From: Aliiruegeria haliotis
Lineage (GTDB): Bacteria; Pseudomonadota; Alphaproteobacteria; Rhodobacterales; Rhodobacteraceae
DNA: 64,000 bases
Reading direction: 5' to 3'
Assembly: GCF_003003255.1 (NCBI RefSeq)
Contig: NZ_PVTD01000004.1
Location: forward strand, 124,001-188,000
Below, in pieces: positions 46,973 through 54,145 of this stretch; the first letter of the stretch is position 1; the number at the start of each line of letters is the position of its first letter. The position numbers and the translations under genes are program-made. The notes beneath the pieces are model-generated. The model did no database searches. It was not told where the DNA came from and saw only the letters and a program-made list of their open reading frames with translations.

Positions 46973-47587
46973 CACAACCGCCCCCTCGGACCTTCGAGAG
47001 CAATCACCGCTTCTTGGTGGAGTTCGGACTGACACTGGCGCAGAGCGAACGGCAACAGCGCCGCCGGGTACGCCGCCCGACTCGCTGGTACGCCAAAGAC
47101 CCACGCCTCACGAATGCCCGTTGGTGCGTCCTTCGATGCTGAGCCCACCCGATCCTGACGGAGGCCTCTGCGGTGGCTTTACTCCCTTGCCATTGACGGA
47201 CACCCTGCATCACGACCGCCTTCCCGCATCAAGCGCGACGGATCTGCTCGGCCTTTCGGGCCCGCGTCGCACCAACGATCCGAGAGAAAAGCAGAAATTC
47301 AGCGTCGCGTTTGCGTGAGCTCCTGTGCGCGACGCCCCGGAAGCCTGCCCGACTTTCGTTACATCCCTCACGGTGGCGGGAGAATGTGCTCGCGTTTCGC
47401 GAGTTCAACCCGTCCGTAGAAACCAAGCCACCGTTTCAAGCCCCCCTCGCCGCTGCGTGATGTGCCCGGCTGCACACAGACCCCTGTTCTGGCGCGGGTT
47501 CTGTTCGCCGGGCCAATCCCCATCTTGGCTTCATCGACGGCACCCAAGCCGCAGTGAAACAGATCAGTTGAACCGAAAGGACAGACC
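46973..47587. other. Gene-poor stretch before secreted paralogue A
   Basis: About 615 bases with no gene I can support. The open frames here lack start signals and motifs. It contains a Crp-type palindrome at 47461-47476 and the presumed promoter of the secreted protein. The region at 46990-47300 may be decayed coding sequence, as the codon pattern drifts in and out of frame. Confidence 0.4.
47461..47476. promoter_or_regulatory. Crp-type operator TGTGC-N6-GCACA (copy A)
   Basis: Perfect dyad TGTGC (47461-47465), spacer CCGGCT, GCACA (47472-47476). This resembles the E. coli Crp consensus TGTGA-N6-TCACA. The same dyad, with the same left flank GCGTGA, occurs upstream of the second paralogue. 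Its centre is about 119 bases upstream of the ATG at 47588. Confidence 0.65.
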
Positions 47588-48052
47588 ATGAAAACCATCG
47601 CACTTGCAACCGCCCTGACCGTCGCCGTCTCTGCCCCGGCTTTCGCGAACGAGCAACTTGCCAATGGCCTCGGCATCGATGCCAGCCAGTACACGACCGC
47701 GCAGATCGCAGCGCTGCGTGCCGCCACTGCCGATGACGAGCGGGCCGCCGCCAACTACATCCGAAAGAACGGTGGCGCGTCCGGTGCGACGGTCTCCACC
47801 AAGAGCTTCGGCAGCAATGACCGCGCGACCGAAATCGCCATCCAAAGCGCACTGGCCTCCGACGAGCGCGCTTCGGCCCGGTCGCTTCAAAAATCGGCTT
47901 CTGGCGTGACGGTTTCCACCAAGAGTGTCGGAACCTCCGCCGGACAGCGCCAGCTCGCCGCCTCGCTTGGTGTCGACCCGGCCGACTACACTCTGGCTGA
48001 GCTGGTCCATCTGAAGGGCGTCCAGTCGAGCGACAATGGCCGCGGCGAATAA
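47588..48052 (+). CDS. Secreted repeat protein A (paralogue of the gene at 49597)
   Basis: 154 aa. Signal peptide (MKTIALATALTVAVSAPAFA), then a domain QLANGLGIDASQYTTAQIAALRAA near the N-terminus and a similar one near the C-terminus (RQLAASLGVDPADYTLAELVHLKG). A Thr/Ser-rich middle repeats STKSFG/STKSVG. The protein ends SSDNGRGE. It is periplasmic or exported, with no Cys. ATG follows AAAGGACAGACC. I do not recognise a named family. It shares its layout and ending with the second paralogue. Confidence 0.78.
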   Translation: MKTIALATALTVAVSAPAFANEQLANGLGIDASQYTTAQIAALRAATADDERAAANYIRKNGGASGATVSTKSFGSNDRATEIAIQSALASDERASARSLQKSASGVTVSTKSVGTSAGQRQLAASLGVDPADYTLAELVHLKGVQSSDNGRGE

Positions 48053-48076
48053 CGTAAACGGCCCCTCTGTTTCTTT

Positions 48077-48104
48077 GCGGCCTCACGCTCCGGCGTGGGG
48101 CCGC
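48077..48104 (+). terminator. Hairpin after secreted repeat protein A
   Basis: 12-bp stem GCGGCCTCACGC (48077-48088), loop TCCG, GCGTGGGGCCGC (48093-48104), with one G-T wobble. A T-run is only partial (ACATCGTTT). It starts 25 bases after the stop codon, so it is the likely terminator. Confidence 0.65.
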
Positions 48105-48524
48105 ACATCGTTTCAAGACAGGCGAACTCGGGTACCTCCGCCCCAAAGTCACGCCATCCGCCCGGGTCTCGGGCTCTGCGGCACGCGACGCCGATCGACG
48201 GTGCACAAACAGTCCCGGAACGCGCAAGTCGCGCACTGGTCTTCAGAATCATCCTTCAGCACCGCTCGACTTGTCTGCGCCGCGCTGACGACGCGCGATT
48301 GGCTGCGCTTCGGTCCTGGACGCACCCCACGCACCCAAATGCGACGCGTGATTGCGGCGTCATGAACCACCCTGACTTTCAGCGAACGAGCGCCGGGTGC
48401 CGCGAGATTAGGCGGATGTACTGACTTGCCGGACAAATCCGCCCATTTGCTTCGAGAATTGCCTTGAGGACCTTCACGGATGGGACGACAAACGTGATTG
48501 CATGATCATATTCATATAACCGTC
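48105..48524. other. Upstream region of the Crp-family regulator
   Basis: About 420 bases with no supported gene. It becomes AT-rich near the regulator start (48490-48525). No TGTGC-N6-GCACA dyad is seen here, so autoregulation through that site is not evident. Confidence 0.4.
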
Positions 48525-49253
48525 ATGAACAGCACCGACACGATGCCCGTCGGGCGGACCGCCCGCAACCGCGCCTCCAGGTTCCTGAGCCGAACCGGAT
48601 GGTTGTCGACCCTCACCAACCGGTGCCGGACACTTGTCCTTTCCAGATGTCGACCGGTTTGCTTTGCAGCTGGCCAGACGATCTACACCCAAGGCGACAC
48701 TCCGGACGGCCTCTTCGGTTTCGTCGACGGTGGCATCAAGGTGTTGCGGGCTGGAGAGGACGGCGCGTTGGTGCAACTGCACCTGACCGAAGCCGGTTTC
48801 TGGACCGGGGAAACCGCGCTCTTCCATGGACAGACCCGTTTTTTCACTCTGGTTGCGACGCAACCGACGCTCGGGCTGCACCTGTCGCAGGACGATTTGA
48901 CGGACTTGCTGCACTGCAACCCGGACCGAGTGCCGGAGATCTACTCGTTGTCGCACCGGAACCAGGCGACGACCCTGCGGCTCATGGCGCATCTCATGAC
49001 GCCGAACTACGAACGCCGGATTGCCCTGCGGCTACTGCATTACGACGACATGTCCCAGGATCCGGATCGCTGGATCAAGCTGGGTCAGGAAGACCTCGCC
49101 CGCCTCCTCTCAGTTTCCATGCCGACGTTGCACAGGACCCTGCGCAGTTTCAAACGGACGGGATTGGTCGAACTTGGCTACGGGCGGCTGCGCGTTCGTG
49201 ATCGGAGTGCACTCCTTGCAACCTGCGCGAAGGATCGTGATCCCGCCGCGTAG
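48525..49253 (+). CDS. Crp/Fnr-family transcriptional regulator
   Basis: 242 aa. N-terminal cyclic-nucleotide-binding beta-roll (AGQTIYTQGDTPDGLFGFVDGGIKVLR), a long dimer helix, and a C-terminal Crp-type HTH (GQEDLARLLSVSMPTLHRTLRSFKRTGLVELGYGRLRVRD). Cys residues near the N-terminus are not spaced like the FNR iron-sulphur ligands. Whether it binds cAMP cannot be told. ATG 48525 is chosen; earlier TTG and later ATG 48543 are alternatives. It lies between the two secreted paralogues. Confidence 0.9.
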   Translation: MNSTDTMPVGRTARNRASRFLSRTGWLSTLTNRCRTLVLSRCRPVCFAAGQTIYTQGDTPDGLFGFVDGGIKVLRAGEDGALVQLHLTEAGFWTGETALFHGQTRFFTLVATQPTLGLHLSQDDLTDLLHCNPDRVPEIYSLSHRNQATTLRLMAHLMTPNYERRIALRLLHYDDMSQDPDRWIKLGQEDLARLLSVSMPTLHRTLRSFKRTGLVELGYGRLRVRDRSALLATCAKDRDPAA

Positions 49254-49596
49254 CGATGCCAGGCACCGCGCCGTGCTATCCAAAACACCCTCACCGGTGG
49301 TTTTTTTGATCTCACTTGCGTGACCCGTCGTGCGCCCGGCCCCTTCGGCAGGCACGTCGACAGGATACGACCGCAGCCGCACGGAGTACCGCCTCTCCCT
49401 GACCCTTTCAAAGATGCACTACGAGGAATTCAACCCCGCTCCGCCGCGCGTGATGTGCATTATCGCACAACTGCCCCGAAATTCTTCAGACTTCTGCAAA
49501 AAGATGTCGGTGCCTATCTCCCTTTCATCGAAGGCGCCCACAGCGGTGCCGCCCGAAACCGGAAAAGACACACACACGACACAAAGGACTTTATCG
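49254..49596. other. Upstream region of secreted paralogue B
   Basis: About 343 bases with no supported gene. A T-run at 49305-49311 after a small imperfect hairpin may terminate the regulator. It contains the second Crp-type dyad (49454-49469) and the promoter of paralogue B. Confidence 0.45.
49454..49469. promoter_or_regulatory. Crp-type operator TGTGC-N6-GCACA (copy B)
   Basis: Perfect dyad TGTGC (49454-49458), spacer ATTATC, GCACA (49465-49469). Same as copy A but with a different spacer. The left flank GCGTGA is shared. Its centre is about 135 bases upstream of the ATG at 49597. Confidence 0.65.
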
Positions 49597-50028
49597 ATGC
49601 TTCGCTTTGCTTTGACCACCGCACTGACGCTTTCCCTCGCAGCGCCCGCCTTTGCCAGCAGCCAACTTGCAAATGGTCTGGGTATCGACGCCAGCGACTA
49701 CACCACCGCCGAGATCGCGGCTCTGCGCTCCGCCGTTGCCGATGATGAAACCGCGGCGGCCAACTTCTATCGCAAAAACAACGGCGCATCTTCGGCCGAC
49801 ACCACCGAGCAGGCAATTGCATCGGCGCTGGCCGATGACGACCGCGCCTCGGCCCGCTCGATCAAGGCGTCCGCTTCCGGCGAGACCCTCTCCACCAAGA
49901 GCGTGGGCATTTCCGCCGGTCACCAGCAACTGGCCGACAACCTCGGTGTTGACGCCAACGAATACTCGCTGGCCGAACTCGTGCACCTGAAAGGTGTACG
50001 GTCGAGCGACAACGGCCGGGGCGAGTAA
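49597..50028 (+). CDS. Secreted repeat protein B (paralogue of the gene at 47588)
   Basis: 143 aa. Signal peptide (MLRFALTTALTLSLAAPAFA), N-terminal SSQLANGLGIDASDYTTAEIAALRSA, and C-terminal HQQLADNLGVDANEYSLAELVHLKG, ending SSDNGRGE like paralogue A. The two proteins are alignable over their whole length. It lacks the extra repeat of A in the middle. ACAAAGGAC precedes ATG 49597. Unrecognised family; likely periplasmic or exported. Confidence 0.78.
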   Translation: MLRFALTTALTLSLAAPAFASSQLANGLGIDASDYTTAEIAALRSAVADDETAAANFYRKNNGASSADTTEQAIASALADDDRASARSIKASASGETLSTKSVGISAGHQQLADNLGVDANEYSLAELVHLKGVRSSDNGRGE

Positions 50029-50062
50029 AACTCCGTTGCTGTCCCGGTCCCCTCCCAGCCGG

Positions 50063-50104
50063 GTCGGCATGCCGACGTGATCGCAGCCCCCTTGGCTGCG
50101 ATCA
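50063..50104. repeat. Two adjacent inverted repeats
   Basis: A perfect 14-base palindrome GTCGGCATGCCGAC (50063-50076) is followed by an 11-bp hairpin TGATCGCAGCC / GGCTGCGATCA (50078-50088 / 50094-50104). They lie between paralogue B and its terminator. Function unknown; they could be transcript-stabilising structures. Confidence 0.55.
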
Positions 50105-50136
50105 CCCGCATCAGAACGACCATCGAAATCCCGACA

Positions 50137-50165
50137 CCCCGCCGGACCGCCACCGGCGGGGTTTT
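50137..50165 (+). terminator. Rho-independent terminator after secreted repeat protein B
   Basis: Perfect 9-bp stem CCCCGCCGG (50137-50145) / CCGGCGGGG (50153-50161) with a 7-base loop, followed by TTTT (50162-50165). It separates the secreted protein from the ffh cluster. The rest of the gap to ffh (50166-50432) has no recognisable gene. Confidence 0.85.
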
Positions 50166-50432
50166 CCGTTCCAGGGGCATCGCACGGCATGCCCGGATTC
50201 TCCCTGCCTCCTCCCCCCCACGCTCTGACAATGCGCATCGCCCGTGGCCTTGACTCGCCCGCAGGAGCCGCGTAGACCGCGCGCAACACCCGGAAGTGTA
50301 GGCTTCCGGTCCTTCCCTCGTGGAGGATCGCCACCAGTCAGCGCGTTGCGCCCACTGGTGCGTTTGTGGTTTGCGAACCGGCTTCCTACATGGAAGCCAC
50401 GTGCAGTCAAAGGGCCGAAGGAGGGCCGGGGC

Positions 50433-51941
50433 ATGTTTGAAAATCTGTCAGAACGCCTCGGTGGAGTCTTCGACCGGCTGACCAAGCAGGGCGCTTTGTC
50501 CGAAGACGACGTGAAGACCGCCCTGCGGGAGGTTCGCGTCGCGCTTCTGGAGGCCGACGTCTCCCTGCCCGTCGCCCGTGAGTTCATCAAGGCGGTGCAG
50601 GGCAAGGCCACCGGTGCCGCGGTCACCAAGTCGGTCACGCCCGGCCAGCAGGTGGTCAAGATCGTCCATGACGAACTGGTGCATTTCCTCGCCGGGAGCA
50701 ACGAGACACCCGGCGAACTGAAAGTCGACAGCCCCCCCGCGCCGATCCTCATGGTCGGCCTGCAGGGCTCGGGCAAGACGACCACCACCGCCAAGCTTGC
50801 CAGGCGCCTGACGGAGAGGAACGGCAAGCGGGTGCTGATGGCATCGCTCGACGTCAACCGCCCCGCCGCCATGGAGCAACTGGCGATCCTCGGCACCCAG
50901 GTCGGTGTCGATACCCTGCCGATCATCAAGGGCCAGACGCCGGTGGACATCGCCAGGAGGGCCAAGCAGCAGGCGACGCTGGGTGGTTACGATGTCTACA
51001 TGCTCGACACCGCCGGCCGGTTGTCGATCGACGACCAGTTGATGGCGGAGGTCGAGGCTGTTCGCGATGTCACCACCCCGCGAGAGACGTTGCTGGTGGT
51101 CGATGGCCTGACAGGCCAGGACGCCGTCCACACCGCGGAGAATTTTGACGCGCGCATCGGCATTTCCGGCGTGGTGCTGACCCGGATGGACGGCGACGGC
51201 CGTGGCGGTGCGGCGCTCTCGATGCGCTATGTCACCGGCCAGCCGATCAAGTTCGTCGGCCTGGGCGAAAAGATGGACGCGCTGGAGGAGTTCCACCCTG
51301 AGCGGATCGCCGGACGCATCCTTGGCATGGGCGACATCGTCTCCCTCGTCGAAAAGGCGCAGGAAACGCTGGAGATCGAGCAGGCCGAGCGCATGATGAA
51401 GCGCTTCCAGAAGGGTCAGTTCAACATGAACGATCTGCGCTCGCAGCTTGAGCAGATGCTCAAGATGGGCGGCATGGAGGGCGTCATGGGCATGATGCCC
51501 GGCATGGGCAAGATGAAGAACCAGGTCGCCGACGCCGGGTTCGACGACAGCGTCCTGCGCCGCCAGATCGCGCTCATCAACTCGATGACCAAGAAGGAGC
51601 GCGCCGCACCGCAGATCCTTCAGGCCAGCCGCAAGAAGCGGATCGCCAAGGGTGCGGGGTTGGAAGTCAGCGAGTTGAACAAGCTGCTGAAGATGCACCG
51701 CCAGATGTCGGACATGATGAAGAAGATGGGCAAGAAAGGTCTGCTGAAGCAGGCCATGGCCGGGATGTTCGGCAAGGGTGGCGACATGCCCAAGGAACTC
51801 GCCGGTGCCAATCCCGCGGATCTTGAGAAGGCCGCGAAGGCGCTCGGCAAGATGCCCGGTGGTGTCCCTGGTGGCCTGCCCGGTCTTGGCGGCGGCATGG
51901 GTCTGCCGCCGGGTCTCTCCGGCTTTGGAAAGAAGAAATAG
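50433..51941 (+). CDS. ffh: Signal recognition particle protein Ffh
   Basis: SRP GTPase that targets membrane proteins cotranslationally. 502 aa. N and G domains with GLQGSGKTTTTAKLA, DTAGRL and TRMDGDGRGG. The Met-rich M domain (MEGVMGMMPGMGKMKNQ) is followed by a Gly/Pro-rich tail (GGVPGGLPGLGGGMGLPPG). ATG 50433 follows GGAGGGCCGGGGC. It heads a long plus-strand cluster that ends with rpmE. The SRP RNA gene is not seen here. Confidence 0.97.
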   Translation: MFENLSERLGGVFDRLTKQGALSEDDVKTALREVRVALLEADVSLPVAREFIKAVQGKATGAAVTKSVTPGQQVVKIVHDELVHFLAGSNETPGELKVDSPPAPILMVGLQGSGKTTTTAKLARRLTERNGKRVLMASLDVNRPAAMEQLAILGTQVGVDTLPIIKGQTPVDIARRAKQQATLGGYDVYMLDTAGRLSIDDQLMAEVEAVRDVTTPRETLLVVDGLTGQDAVHTAENFDARIGISGVVLTRMDGDGRGGAALSMRYVTGQPIKFVGLGEKMDALEEFHPERIAGRILGMGDIVSLVEKAQETLEIEQAERMMKRFQKGQFNMNDLRSQLEQMLKMGGMEGVMGMMPGMGKMKNQVADAGFDDSVLRRQIALINSMTKKERAAPQILQASRKKRIAKGAGLEVSELNKLLKMHRQMSDMMKKMGKKGLLKQAMAGMFGKGGDMPKELAGANPADLEKAAKALGKMPGGVPGGLPGLGGGMGLPPGLSGFGKKK

Positions 51942-51945
51942 ATCC

Positions 51946-52473
51946 ATGCGCACCCCGGTCCTTGAAACCTCACGCCTGTTCCTGCGTCGCCCCAACCGTG
52001 CCGATGTCGGCTCCGTCCTTGCGCGCCTGAAACGCGGCGAGACGCATATCGCCAGCGCCCCGTTGTCCGGCGAGGCCGCGCTGGGCCAGGTCGTTCCGAT
52101 CGTCTGCCATTGGGATCTTTGCGGTCTGGGCCTGTTTGCGGTGGTGCCGAAAGGCTGCGACGACCCGATCGGGTTGGCCGGCCCCTGGCACGCCACCGGT
52201 TGGCCGGAGCCGGAACTCGGCTTCCTGTTCTTCGATACTGCCGATGCCGACACGCTTGGCCCCGAAGCCCTGCGCGCAGCGCGCGATTTTGCGGAACGCG
52301 GCGTCGGCTGGAAGGATATCATCTCATACATCGATGCGGAGGATCGCCGCGGCGCCGCCCTGCTCCGCACGACGCAGGCAATCGCCGATCCGTTCTGCGA
52401 TACGCCCGAGGCCGCACTGACCTTCCGCCACCCCGTCCGCCGCAAGACAAACGGCTGGAAGCGCGCGGCGTGA
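51946..52473 (+). CDS. GNAT acetyltransferase 1 (divergent)
   Basis: 175 aa, RimJ/RimL-type GNAT: VLETSRLFLRRPNRADV opens the fold and PEPELGFLFF marks the core. The acetyl-CoA pyrophosphate loop, normally Q/R-x-x-G-x-G/A, reads DADTLGPEALRAA and lacks the GxG pattern. It starts 4 bases after ffh, so it is cotranscribed. It is the most divergent of six tandem GNATs and may bind acetyl-CoA poorly. Confidence 0.8.
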   Translation: MRTPVLETSRLFLRRPNRADVGSVLARLKRGETHIASAPLSGEAALGQVVPIVCHWDLCGLGLFAVVPKGCDDPIGLAGPWHATGWPEPELGFLFFDTADADTLGPEALRAARDFAERGVGWKDIISYIDAEDRRGAALLRTTQAIADPFCDTPEAALTFRHPVRRKTNGWKRAA

Positions 52474-52554
52474 TCCGGACCAGCGGACATATCGCTCCCT
52501 CGCTTTCGAGGGCGAAGCGGACGGGCGTGCCCCGGGCCGCATCGGAGGTGTGTC

Positions 52555-53088
52555 ATGACTGACGCTCCGACATTGAATACCGCACGCCTGATCCTCCGCG
52601 CCCAGCGTGTCGATGACTTCGAGCCCTTCGCGGCGATGCTTGCCACCGACCGATCCAGGTGGATGGGCGGTCCCTGCACCCGCCGGGACAGTTGGTTGTG
52701 GTTCGCGTCCGACTCCGGCGCGTGGAGCCTGATGGGCACCGGCGGCTGGACCATCGAGCGACGCGAGGACGGCGCGGTCCTGGGCCAGATCGGCTGCAAC
52801 AAGCCGGACTTCTTCCCGGAAACCGAGCTGGGCTGGATGCTCTACGAGGGGTTCGAGGGGCGTGGCTATGCCTTCGAGGCCGCCGCCGCCGCCCGCGACT
52901 GGGCCTTCGGCACGCGTGGGTTGCCTACTCTGGTCAGCTACATCAGCCCGGACAACCTCGGCTCGATCAGGCTGGCCGAACGGTTGGGCGCAATCCGCGA
53001 CGATGCAGCCGACCGCCCGGAGCCGGACGACCTCGTCTACCGCCACCCTCACCCTTCGGGCGACGGCGGGATGGAGGCCTACGCATGA
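52555..53088 (+). CDS. GNAT acetyltransferase 2
   Basis: 177 aa RimJ/RimL-type GNAT. N-terminus TLNTARLILRAQRVDDFEPF; core PETELGWMLYEGFEGRGYAFEAAAAARDW, with the acetyl-CoA loop EGRGYAFEA intact. RimJ/RimL enzymes acetylate N-termini of ribosomal proteins, but this copy's target is unknown. It overlaps copy 3 by ATGA. Confidence 0.88.
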   Translation: MTDAPTLNTARLILRAQRVDDFEPFAAMLATDRSRWMGGPCTRRDSWLWFASDSGAWSLMGTGGWTIERREDGAVLGQIGCNKPDFFPETELGWMLYEGFEGRGYAFEAAAAARDWAFGTRGLPTLVSYISPDNLGSIRLAERLGAIRDDAADRPEPDDLVYRHPHPSGDGGMEAYA

Positions 53089-53612
53089 CAACGTTCAACA
53101 TCCCAACGCTCCAGACCGATCGTTTCACGCTGCGCGCCCCGTGCCTGTCGGATTTCGAGGCCTATGCCGCTTTCGGCTCATCGGAGCGCAGTGCGCCCGT
53201 TGGCGGCCCCTTTGACCGTACCACCGCATTCCGGAATCTGTGCGCCCTTGGCGGGCAATGGCAGTTGCGCGGCTATGGTCGCTGGATCGTCGCGGGCAAG
53301 GAGACAGACGCCCCGCTCGGCATCGTCGGCATCTACCACCCCGACGACTGGCCGGAACCAGAGATTGGCTGGACCCTGTTCGAAGAGGCCGAAGGCCGTA
53401 GCGTTGCCTTTGAGGCCGCACAGGCGACCCGCGCCTTTGCCTATGAGACCCTGGGGTGGACGACGCTCGTCAGCCACGTCGCCCCGGACAACACGCGTTC
53501 CGCCGCGCTCGCTCGCCGCATGGGCGCCGAGAAGGAGGGCGTGTTCCAGCACCCAAGTTATGGCCAGTTCGACATCTGGCGGCACCTCTCTCCTGACGAG
53601 GTGGCGGCATGA
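53085..53612 (+). CDS. GNAT acetyltransferase 3 (loop altered)
   Basis: 175 aa. Same fold as its neighbours (TLQTDRFTLRAPCLSDFEAYAAF; PEPEIGWTLFEEAEGRSVAFEAAQATRAF). The acetyl-CoA loop reads EGRSVAFEA, with Ser replacing the second conserved Gly. Start overlaps the end of copy 2 (ATGA) and its end overlaps copy 4 (ATGA). It is probably a paralogue by tandem duplication. Confidence 0.86.
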   Translation: MTTFNIPTLQTDRFTLRAPCLSDFEAYAAFGSSERSAPVGGPFDRTTAFRNLCALGGQWQLRGYGRWIVAGKETDAPLGIVGIYHPDDWPEPEIGWTLFEEAEGRSVAFEAAQATRAFAYETLGWTTLVSHVAPDNTRSAALARRMGAEKEGVFQHPSYGQFDIWRHLSPDEVAA

Positions 53613-54145
53613 CGACGATCACGATCCCCACGCTCGAGACCGAGCGCCTGATCCTTCGCGCCCCGCGCATCGAGGATTTCGACACCTGCCGCACCTTCAT
53701 CACCTCCGAACGTTCGCATTTTGTGGGCGGTCCGGTGGACGATGACAGGCAAGCCTGGCGCGCCTTCGCCCATATCTCCTCGATGTGGCTCCTGCGTGGC
53801 GCCGGGATCTTCGTGCTGGAACGTCGCGACACCGGCACCATCGTCGGCGGCGCCGGTCCCTGGGAGCCGGTGAGCTGGCCCGAGCCCGAACTCAGCTGGG
53901 CCGTCTGGAACCCGTCGGAAGAGGGCAAGGGCTTCATCACCGAAGCGATGAAGCGCATCCTGCCGTGGGTCTGGGACGACCTCGGATGGGAGACCTGCGT
54001 TTCCTATGTTGACCCCGATAACCACCGCTCCGCCGCCGTCGCACGACGGCTGGGCGCGGTGATCGATCCCGATGCCGCCGTACCCGCGGGCGAAGAAGAC
54101 GAGCCACTGCACGTCTGGCGTCACCGAAAGGGGACCCGGGCATGA
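53609..54145 (+). CDS. GNAT acetyltransferase 4
   Basis: 178 aa RimJ/RimL-type GNAT. N-terminus TLETERLILRAPRIEDFDTCRTF; core PEPELSWAVWNPSEEGKGFITEAMKRILP, with the acetyl-CoA loop EGKGFITEA intact. It starts in an ATGA overlap with copy 3 and ends in one with copy 5. The GGP motif after the first helices (FVGGPVDD) is shared by most copies. Confidence 0.88.
   Translation: MTTITIPTLETERLILRAPRIEDFDTCRTFITSERSHFVGGPVDDDRQAWRAFAHISSMWLLRGAGIFVLERRDTGTIVGGAGPWEPVSWPEPELSWAVWNPSEEGKGFITEAMKRILPWVWDDLGWETCVSYVDPDNHRSAAVARRLGAVIDPDAAVPAGEEDEPLHVWRHRKGTRA

Follow-up and report, generated by a model that had tools for sequence, protein, structure and literature searches.

A conserved TGTGC-N6-GCACA dyad before exported repeat protein genes of Rhodobacteraceae, and a LysR-type regulator as its candidate reader

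Two exported-protein genes share an operator-like dyad

The window, a stretch of 64,000 nucleotides from the genome of Aliiruegeria haliotis (G000 in our set), contains two genes for small exported proteins on either side of a gene of the Crp/Fnr family. We list the features of this locus below:

47461..47476, plus strand: dyad TGTGC-N6-GCACA before the first exported-protein gene, with GCGTGA directly 5′; the same element stands before relatives of the gene
47523..47543, plus strand: promoter-proximal block resembling CATCTGTCTCATCGAAGGCGC (8 mismatches in 21), 46 nt past the dyad, with a predicted -10 and transcription start
47588..48052, plus strand: exported repeat protein of 154 aa, with no match to Pfam above cut-off
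48498 (or 48531)..49253, plus strand: Crp/Fnr-family gene, a probable bystander; extra paralogue of the Crp gene at G000:C6
49454..49469, plus strand: dyad TGTGC-N6-GCACA before the second exported-protein gene, with GCGTGA directly 5′; the same element stands before relatives of the gene
49517..49537, plus strand: promoter-proximal block (5 mismatches in 21), 47 nt past the dyad; TATCTC at 49515-49520 is a possible -10
49597..50028, plus strand: exported repeat protein of 143 aa, paralogue of 47588..48052

A sequence-only reading of this DNA had described the two proteins as paralogues that can be aligned over their full length and that flank a Crp-family gene, with a perfect dyad and the flank GCGTGA before each, and had proposed that the three genes form a self-contained module. 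The descriptive part of this reading was correct. The proteins are identical at 103 of 154 positions (67%, E = 3e-67), both dyads and their flanks lie at the positions given above, and the protein encoded between them has cNMP-binding and HTH_Crp_2 domains. The distance from dyad to start codon is 111 nt for the first gene and 127 nt for the second. These are the only perfect dyads in the window, where 0.02 would be expected, and two were reached in none of 100 shuffles. The 5.04-Mb source genome holds three, including both window sites, against five for a reversed control pattern, so the dyad is not abundant genome-wide. Its geometry, with arms spaced 5-6-5 and a TGTG core, is that of a Crp/Fnr operator; being evenly spaced, it contains T-N10-A and T-N12-A and no T-N11-A. 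A scan of positions 47300-50200 for the sigma-70 consensus gave no match. Elsewhere in the window (51778-54145), several successive open reading frames past an ffh-like gene resemble GNAT acetyltransferases on visual inspection.

Judged by eye, both exported proteins have a Sec-type signal peptide. Neither matched Pfam or NCBIfam above cut-off, and a Pfam search with 21 relatives gave a best E of 0.0022, with hits scattered over families. Cysteine is absent from all 21 aligned members, and stretches like QLAxSLGVDAxDYSLAELVxLK are common among them. The AlphaFold model of the 143-aa protein is all-helical and of low confidence (mean pLDDT 61, pTM 0.30), which makes it too poor for a fold search. 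Our guess is that these are envelope proteins of a stress response.

The dyad is conserved before the protein family

A profile search for this protein family found a match in 62 of 394 genomes of the Rhodobacteraceae (E ≤ 0.001; some matches are weak), and all nine genomes of the genus have one. We gathered 79 regions upstream of family genes, including those of 25 loci on named contigs (Tropicimonas, Aliiruegeria, Boseongicola, Sulfitobacter, Thalassobacter and Nioella among them). Thalassobacter stenotrophicus CECT 5294 and an Aliiruegeria type strain are among the carriers of family genes. Of these regions, 52 had no 30-mer in common, and 50 were left once the window pair was removed. The best dyad was perfect in 11 of the 50 and had one mismatch in 25, two in 3, three in 2 and four in 9, the last amounting to no recognisable site. 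The sequence-only reading had suggested looking for the dyad near other copies of the family. A site with at most one mismatch occurs in 36 of 50 regions, compared with 1.2% of dinucleotide shuffles. Among 481 regions upstream of other open reading frames, listed mechanically from the named loci, 15 had such a site.

Adding the window pair to these 36 gives 38 regions with good sites. Among them, the arms persist from genus to genus, and what varies is the central six bases and the sequence around the dyad. Each position of the GTGA 5′ of the dyad is conserved in about two thirds of them. A block like CATCTGTCTCATCGAAGGCGC was recognisable in 15 of the 38 (at most 7 mismatches in 21), beginning 46-48 or 55 nt past the dyad; with the possible -10 in this block, the centre of the dyad would lie near -65 relative to the predicted start. 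It might be argued that the dyads have no function and were simply copied when a gene was duplicated together with its upstream region; the window genes are indeed paralogous, and a 25-nt segment that starts 5′ of the dyad and extends into its left arm aligns at 76%. We regard this as extremely improbable, given that the arms alone have been held constant across genera and that the dyad also precedes unrelated genes. Sequence comparison thus indicates that the dyad is a real, conserved operator-like element before this family of exported proteins. This conservation makes co-regulation of the two window genes very probable.

We also considered an activator of the NifA/sigma-54 type, the site of which is TGT-N10-ACA. 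The dyad fits this pattern, but we rejected this candidate because visual inspection of the upstream regions showed no -24/-12 element.

The intervening Crp gene is probably a bystander

The position of the Crp gene between the two exported-protein genes, and the 5-6-5 arm spacing that the dyad shares with Crp sites, make it natural to suppose that this Crp protein binds both dyads and forms a local, self-contained module with its neighbours. We assigned proteins to the Crp subfamily at a threshold of at least 245 bits, chosen at a gap in the score list. With the best seven candidates per genome scored, the subfamily is present in 10 of 394 genomes, only three of which (G000, G007 and G042) are among the 62 with the exported-protein family. 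The 25 named family loci, viewed over up to 8 kb per side (less at contig ends), yielded no Crp relative, nor did 30 further family loci with about 1.5 kb per side, and the window is the only place where we found a Crp gene of this type beside a family gene. Within the genus, eight of nine genomes have the subfamily; the other, G001, has no Crp match, yet a family gene of this genome is preceded by the variant TGTTC-N6-GCACA.

The regions upstream of the Crp-type genes point the same way: none of 19 contains the TGTGC dyad with at most one mismatch. Nine of the 19 contain a different dyad, CCATCA-N2-TGATGG (at most two mismatches; L032, L035, L036, L038, L039, L124, L126, L128 and L131), mostly near the start codon. 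It is found in 1.4% of shuffles, a comparison that is descriptive because the motif was picked after viewing the same sequences. This may possibly be the subfamily's own operator. The region upstream of the window Crp gene has neither motif. Eight Crp copies outside the window locus, including G000:C6, have neighbour genes in common, and the window copy has none of them; two genes next to the core Crp gene, scanned as four proteins, gave no Pfam match. In the recognition helix, the window protein presumably has Met-Pro where E. coli CRP has Arg-Glu.

Taken together, the rarity of this Crp among the family genomes and loci, and the lack of the dyad before Crp-type genes, led us to reject it as the main reader of the dyad, and we consider a local Crp module very unlikely. 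Of the module as first proposed, the co-regulation of the two exported-protein genes stands, by virtue of the dyad conserved before the family. Its control by Crp and its self-contained nature are not supported, as Crp rarely accompanies the family. The window Crp gene is probably a bystander, although its product could act as an additional regulator.

A LysR-type regulator is encoded beside family genes

A different candidate is a LysR-type transcriptional regulator (LTTR), the gene of which lies outside the window in the source genome (G000:C8:179890-180765, minus strand). A third member of the exported-protein family is divergent from it, and TGTGC-ACAACT-GAACA lies between the two genes. 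Both LTTR proteins that we scanned have the domains PF00126 (LysR HTH_1) and PF03466 (substrate-binding) above cut-off. The source genome encodes a second LTTR (G000:C1) that is 45% identical. A literature search returned no recognised description of this LTTR or of the exported proteins.

Orthologues of the LTTR (E ≤ 1e-60) are present in 321 of the 394 genomes (81%) and in all nine of the genus, including the Crp-negative G001. They accompany the exported-protein family in 43 of 44 genomes at a family threshold of E ≤ 1e-10, in 50 of 52 at E ≤ 1e-5 (Fisher p 0.0018) and in 56 of 62 at E ≤ 0.001, leaving six without; LTTR-negative genomes were read by hand from the orthologue search. Co-occurrence alone is weak evidence here because the LTTR is found in 81% of all 394 genomes.

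In 15 genomes, the LTTR gene divergently adjoins a family gene. These comprise eight from the 30 further family loci; G000, G007, G348 and G363, for which coordinates were used; and G002, G006 and G008, for which the divergent reading frame was recognised by eye. An orthologous LTTR was found near a family gene in none of the 25 named loci, which had been found with a search pattern that favoured the dispersed type; in these loci the LTTR would act from afar, as it would in the window. In L241 and L242 (G004 and G003), the divergent neighbour of the LTTR gene codes for an exported protein in which some stretches resemble EF-hands, and EF-hand models match the L241 fragment at scores under their cut-offs.

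The dyad precedes the LTTR gene itself

We read 40 LTTR loci, a non-random sample made up of the 30 best-scoring and those of the genus. For the analysis of upstream regions, two loci with an adjacent family gene were removed and three others of this kind were kept, giving 38 regions. The best dyad had 0, 1, 2 and 3 mismatches in 1, 20, 11 and 6 of these, respectively. A site with at most one mismatch is found in 21 of 38, compared with 1.6% of shuffles; the other 17 have two or three mismatches, and three of the six weakest sites belong to paralogues of about 45% identity. Of the 21 good sites, 20 begin 23-57 nt 5′ of the predicted start codon, and the remaining one at 115. Upstream of lysR in G000 and G007, the flank GTGATGTGC of the window sites is also present.

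Many of these loci include azoR, which encodes an azoreductase. This gene is found in 24 of the 40, and the dyad has at most one mismatch in 14 of them and at most two in all 24. One protein encoded divergently from an LTTR gene matched NCBIfam azoreductase models, below their cut-offs.

Dyad sites across the taxonomic family

We searched all 394 genomes for TGATGTGC-N6-GCACA and found 61 matches in 44 genomes, compared with 5 for the reversed pattern, an excess that overstates the signal because the reversed pattern differs in composition and 36 of the 61 sites have no target that can be named. Two of these 36 are at contig edges, and many of the other 34 are inside open reading frames. Small exported-protein genes follow 21 of the 61 sites, eight of them in one genome and of a divergent 'LGVTSPAEL' type without established homology to the window proteins. 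Four sites precede lysR/azoR, azoR, FMN reductase and glutathione S-transferase (GST) genes.

In G112 (L174 and L182-L188), eight sites each precede a gene for an exported protein of 83-93 aa, and five of these proteins, encoded on four contigs, are near-identical. That near-identical proteins each come with a site suggests that a gene was recently dispersed together with its promoter. L165 (G278) has a site flanked by a GST gene on one side and, on the other, by a divergent open reading frame that is MscL-like by eye. The nine genomes of the genus contain 19 perfect dyads, eight of which are before family genes. Among the nine of the other 11 that we examined, one is at a contig edge, one (L062) precedes an azoR-like gene of the flavodoxin fold and the rest are mostly inside open reading frames.

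The range of genes preceded by the dyad (lysR, azoR, FMN-reductase, GST and exported-protein genes) would also be explained if some other regulator common in the Rhodobacteraceae read it and the LTTR gene were merely one more target. We think this unlikely. No other regulator was seen to be repeatedly adjacent among the loci that we viewed, in a survey that covered part of the regulators. Moreover, a dyad close before the LTTR start codon, with the LTTR gene beside its likely targets, is the usual arrangement for regulators of this type as outlined in a study of HpdR (PMC5431877).

A proposed model of dyad recognition

The comparison of sequences shows the conservation of the dyad, its presence before lysR (also where azoR is nearby) and the adjacency of the LTTR gene to family genes. 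On this basis, we consider it likely that the dyad is the site of a Rhodobacteraceae LTTR encoded outside the window, that the window genes arose by dispersal of one of its targets and have kept the promoter of that target, and that the Crp gene is a bystander. By binding the dyad in the divergent region that holds its own promoter, the LTTR would control its own gene and the adjacent one; that neighbour encodes an azoreductase in many genera and, elsewhere, a small exported repeat protein. The exported-protein gene may, in some lineages, have spread through the genome with its promoter, and the two window genes would be such copies. There, LTTR bound about 65 bp 5′ of the likely transcription start would switch the genes. 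The trigger may be a small molecule, and the association with azoreductase, FMN reductase and GST genes hints at a quinone or another electrophile.

We tentatively raise a broader possibility, that this LTTR, often paired with an azoreductase, is the master switch of undescribed, fast-diverging exported repeat proteins that multiply as cassettes of gene plus promoter within the genomes of Rhodobacteraceae and that form an envelope arm of a quinone or electrophile response. Exported proteins without a Pfam family gain a specific candidate regulator across many genera of Rhodobacteraceae, and the flavin reductases and GST offer them a possible physiological setting. Evidence for LTTRs that recognise the evenly spaced TGTGC-N6-GCACA without T-N11-A is scarce, and the LTTR reading contributes another case. 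The locus also illustrates how the reading of a single genome can mislead: a transcription factor gene beside a site need not encode its reader.

Comparison with known regulatory systems

The E. coli CRP site, TGTGA-N6-TCACA, has arms spaced 5-6-5. Our dyad shares this geometry and the TGTG core, and in the window its sites have a Crp-family gene next to them. It differs in the fifth base of each arm, and the Crp subfamily is missing from most family genomes and often has another dyad upstream. LTTRs of the VtlR/LsrB type activate small proteins; the resemblance would be that small-protein genes of unknown kind are among the targets. Pairs of an LTTR and an azoreductase (FMN-dependent NADH-azoreductase) provide another parallel, as azoR is found in 24 of 40 LTTR loci. 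Here, unlike in such pairs, exported-protein genes replace or accompany azoR, and dispersed copies carry the same site.

T-N11-A is the usual LTTR motif. The 2017 study of HpdR from Pseudomonas putida describes this motif as variable among LTTRs and HpdR as lacking it (PMC5431877). According to the same source, LTTRs usually bind 60-80 nt 5′ of the start of the target, often overlapping their own promoter, and LTTR genes are mostly divergent from the target (PMC5431877). The study identified the imperfect inverted repeat GCCCCTGTGC-n6-GCACAGCGGC, which contains the element CTGTGC-n6-GCACAG that the HpdR promoter requires; mutating the most conserved bases of two elements caused a strong loss of induction or abolished controllable expression, and purified HpdR shifted the mobility of its promoter DNA (PMC5431877). 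HpdR differs from our candidate in genus and target: it regulates hpdH in 3-hydroxypropionate metabolism and responds to that acid (PMC5431877). The two are alike in being LTTRs with a divergent promoter region that contains TGTGC-n6-GCACA and no T-N11-A, a likeness of site and arrangement (PMC5431877). The site and mobility shift of HpdR give the LTTR reading of the dyad an experimental parallel in another LTTR (PMC5431877).
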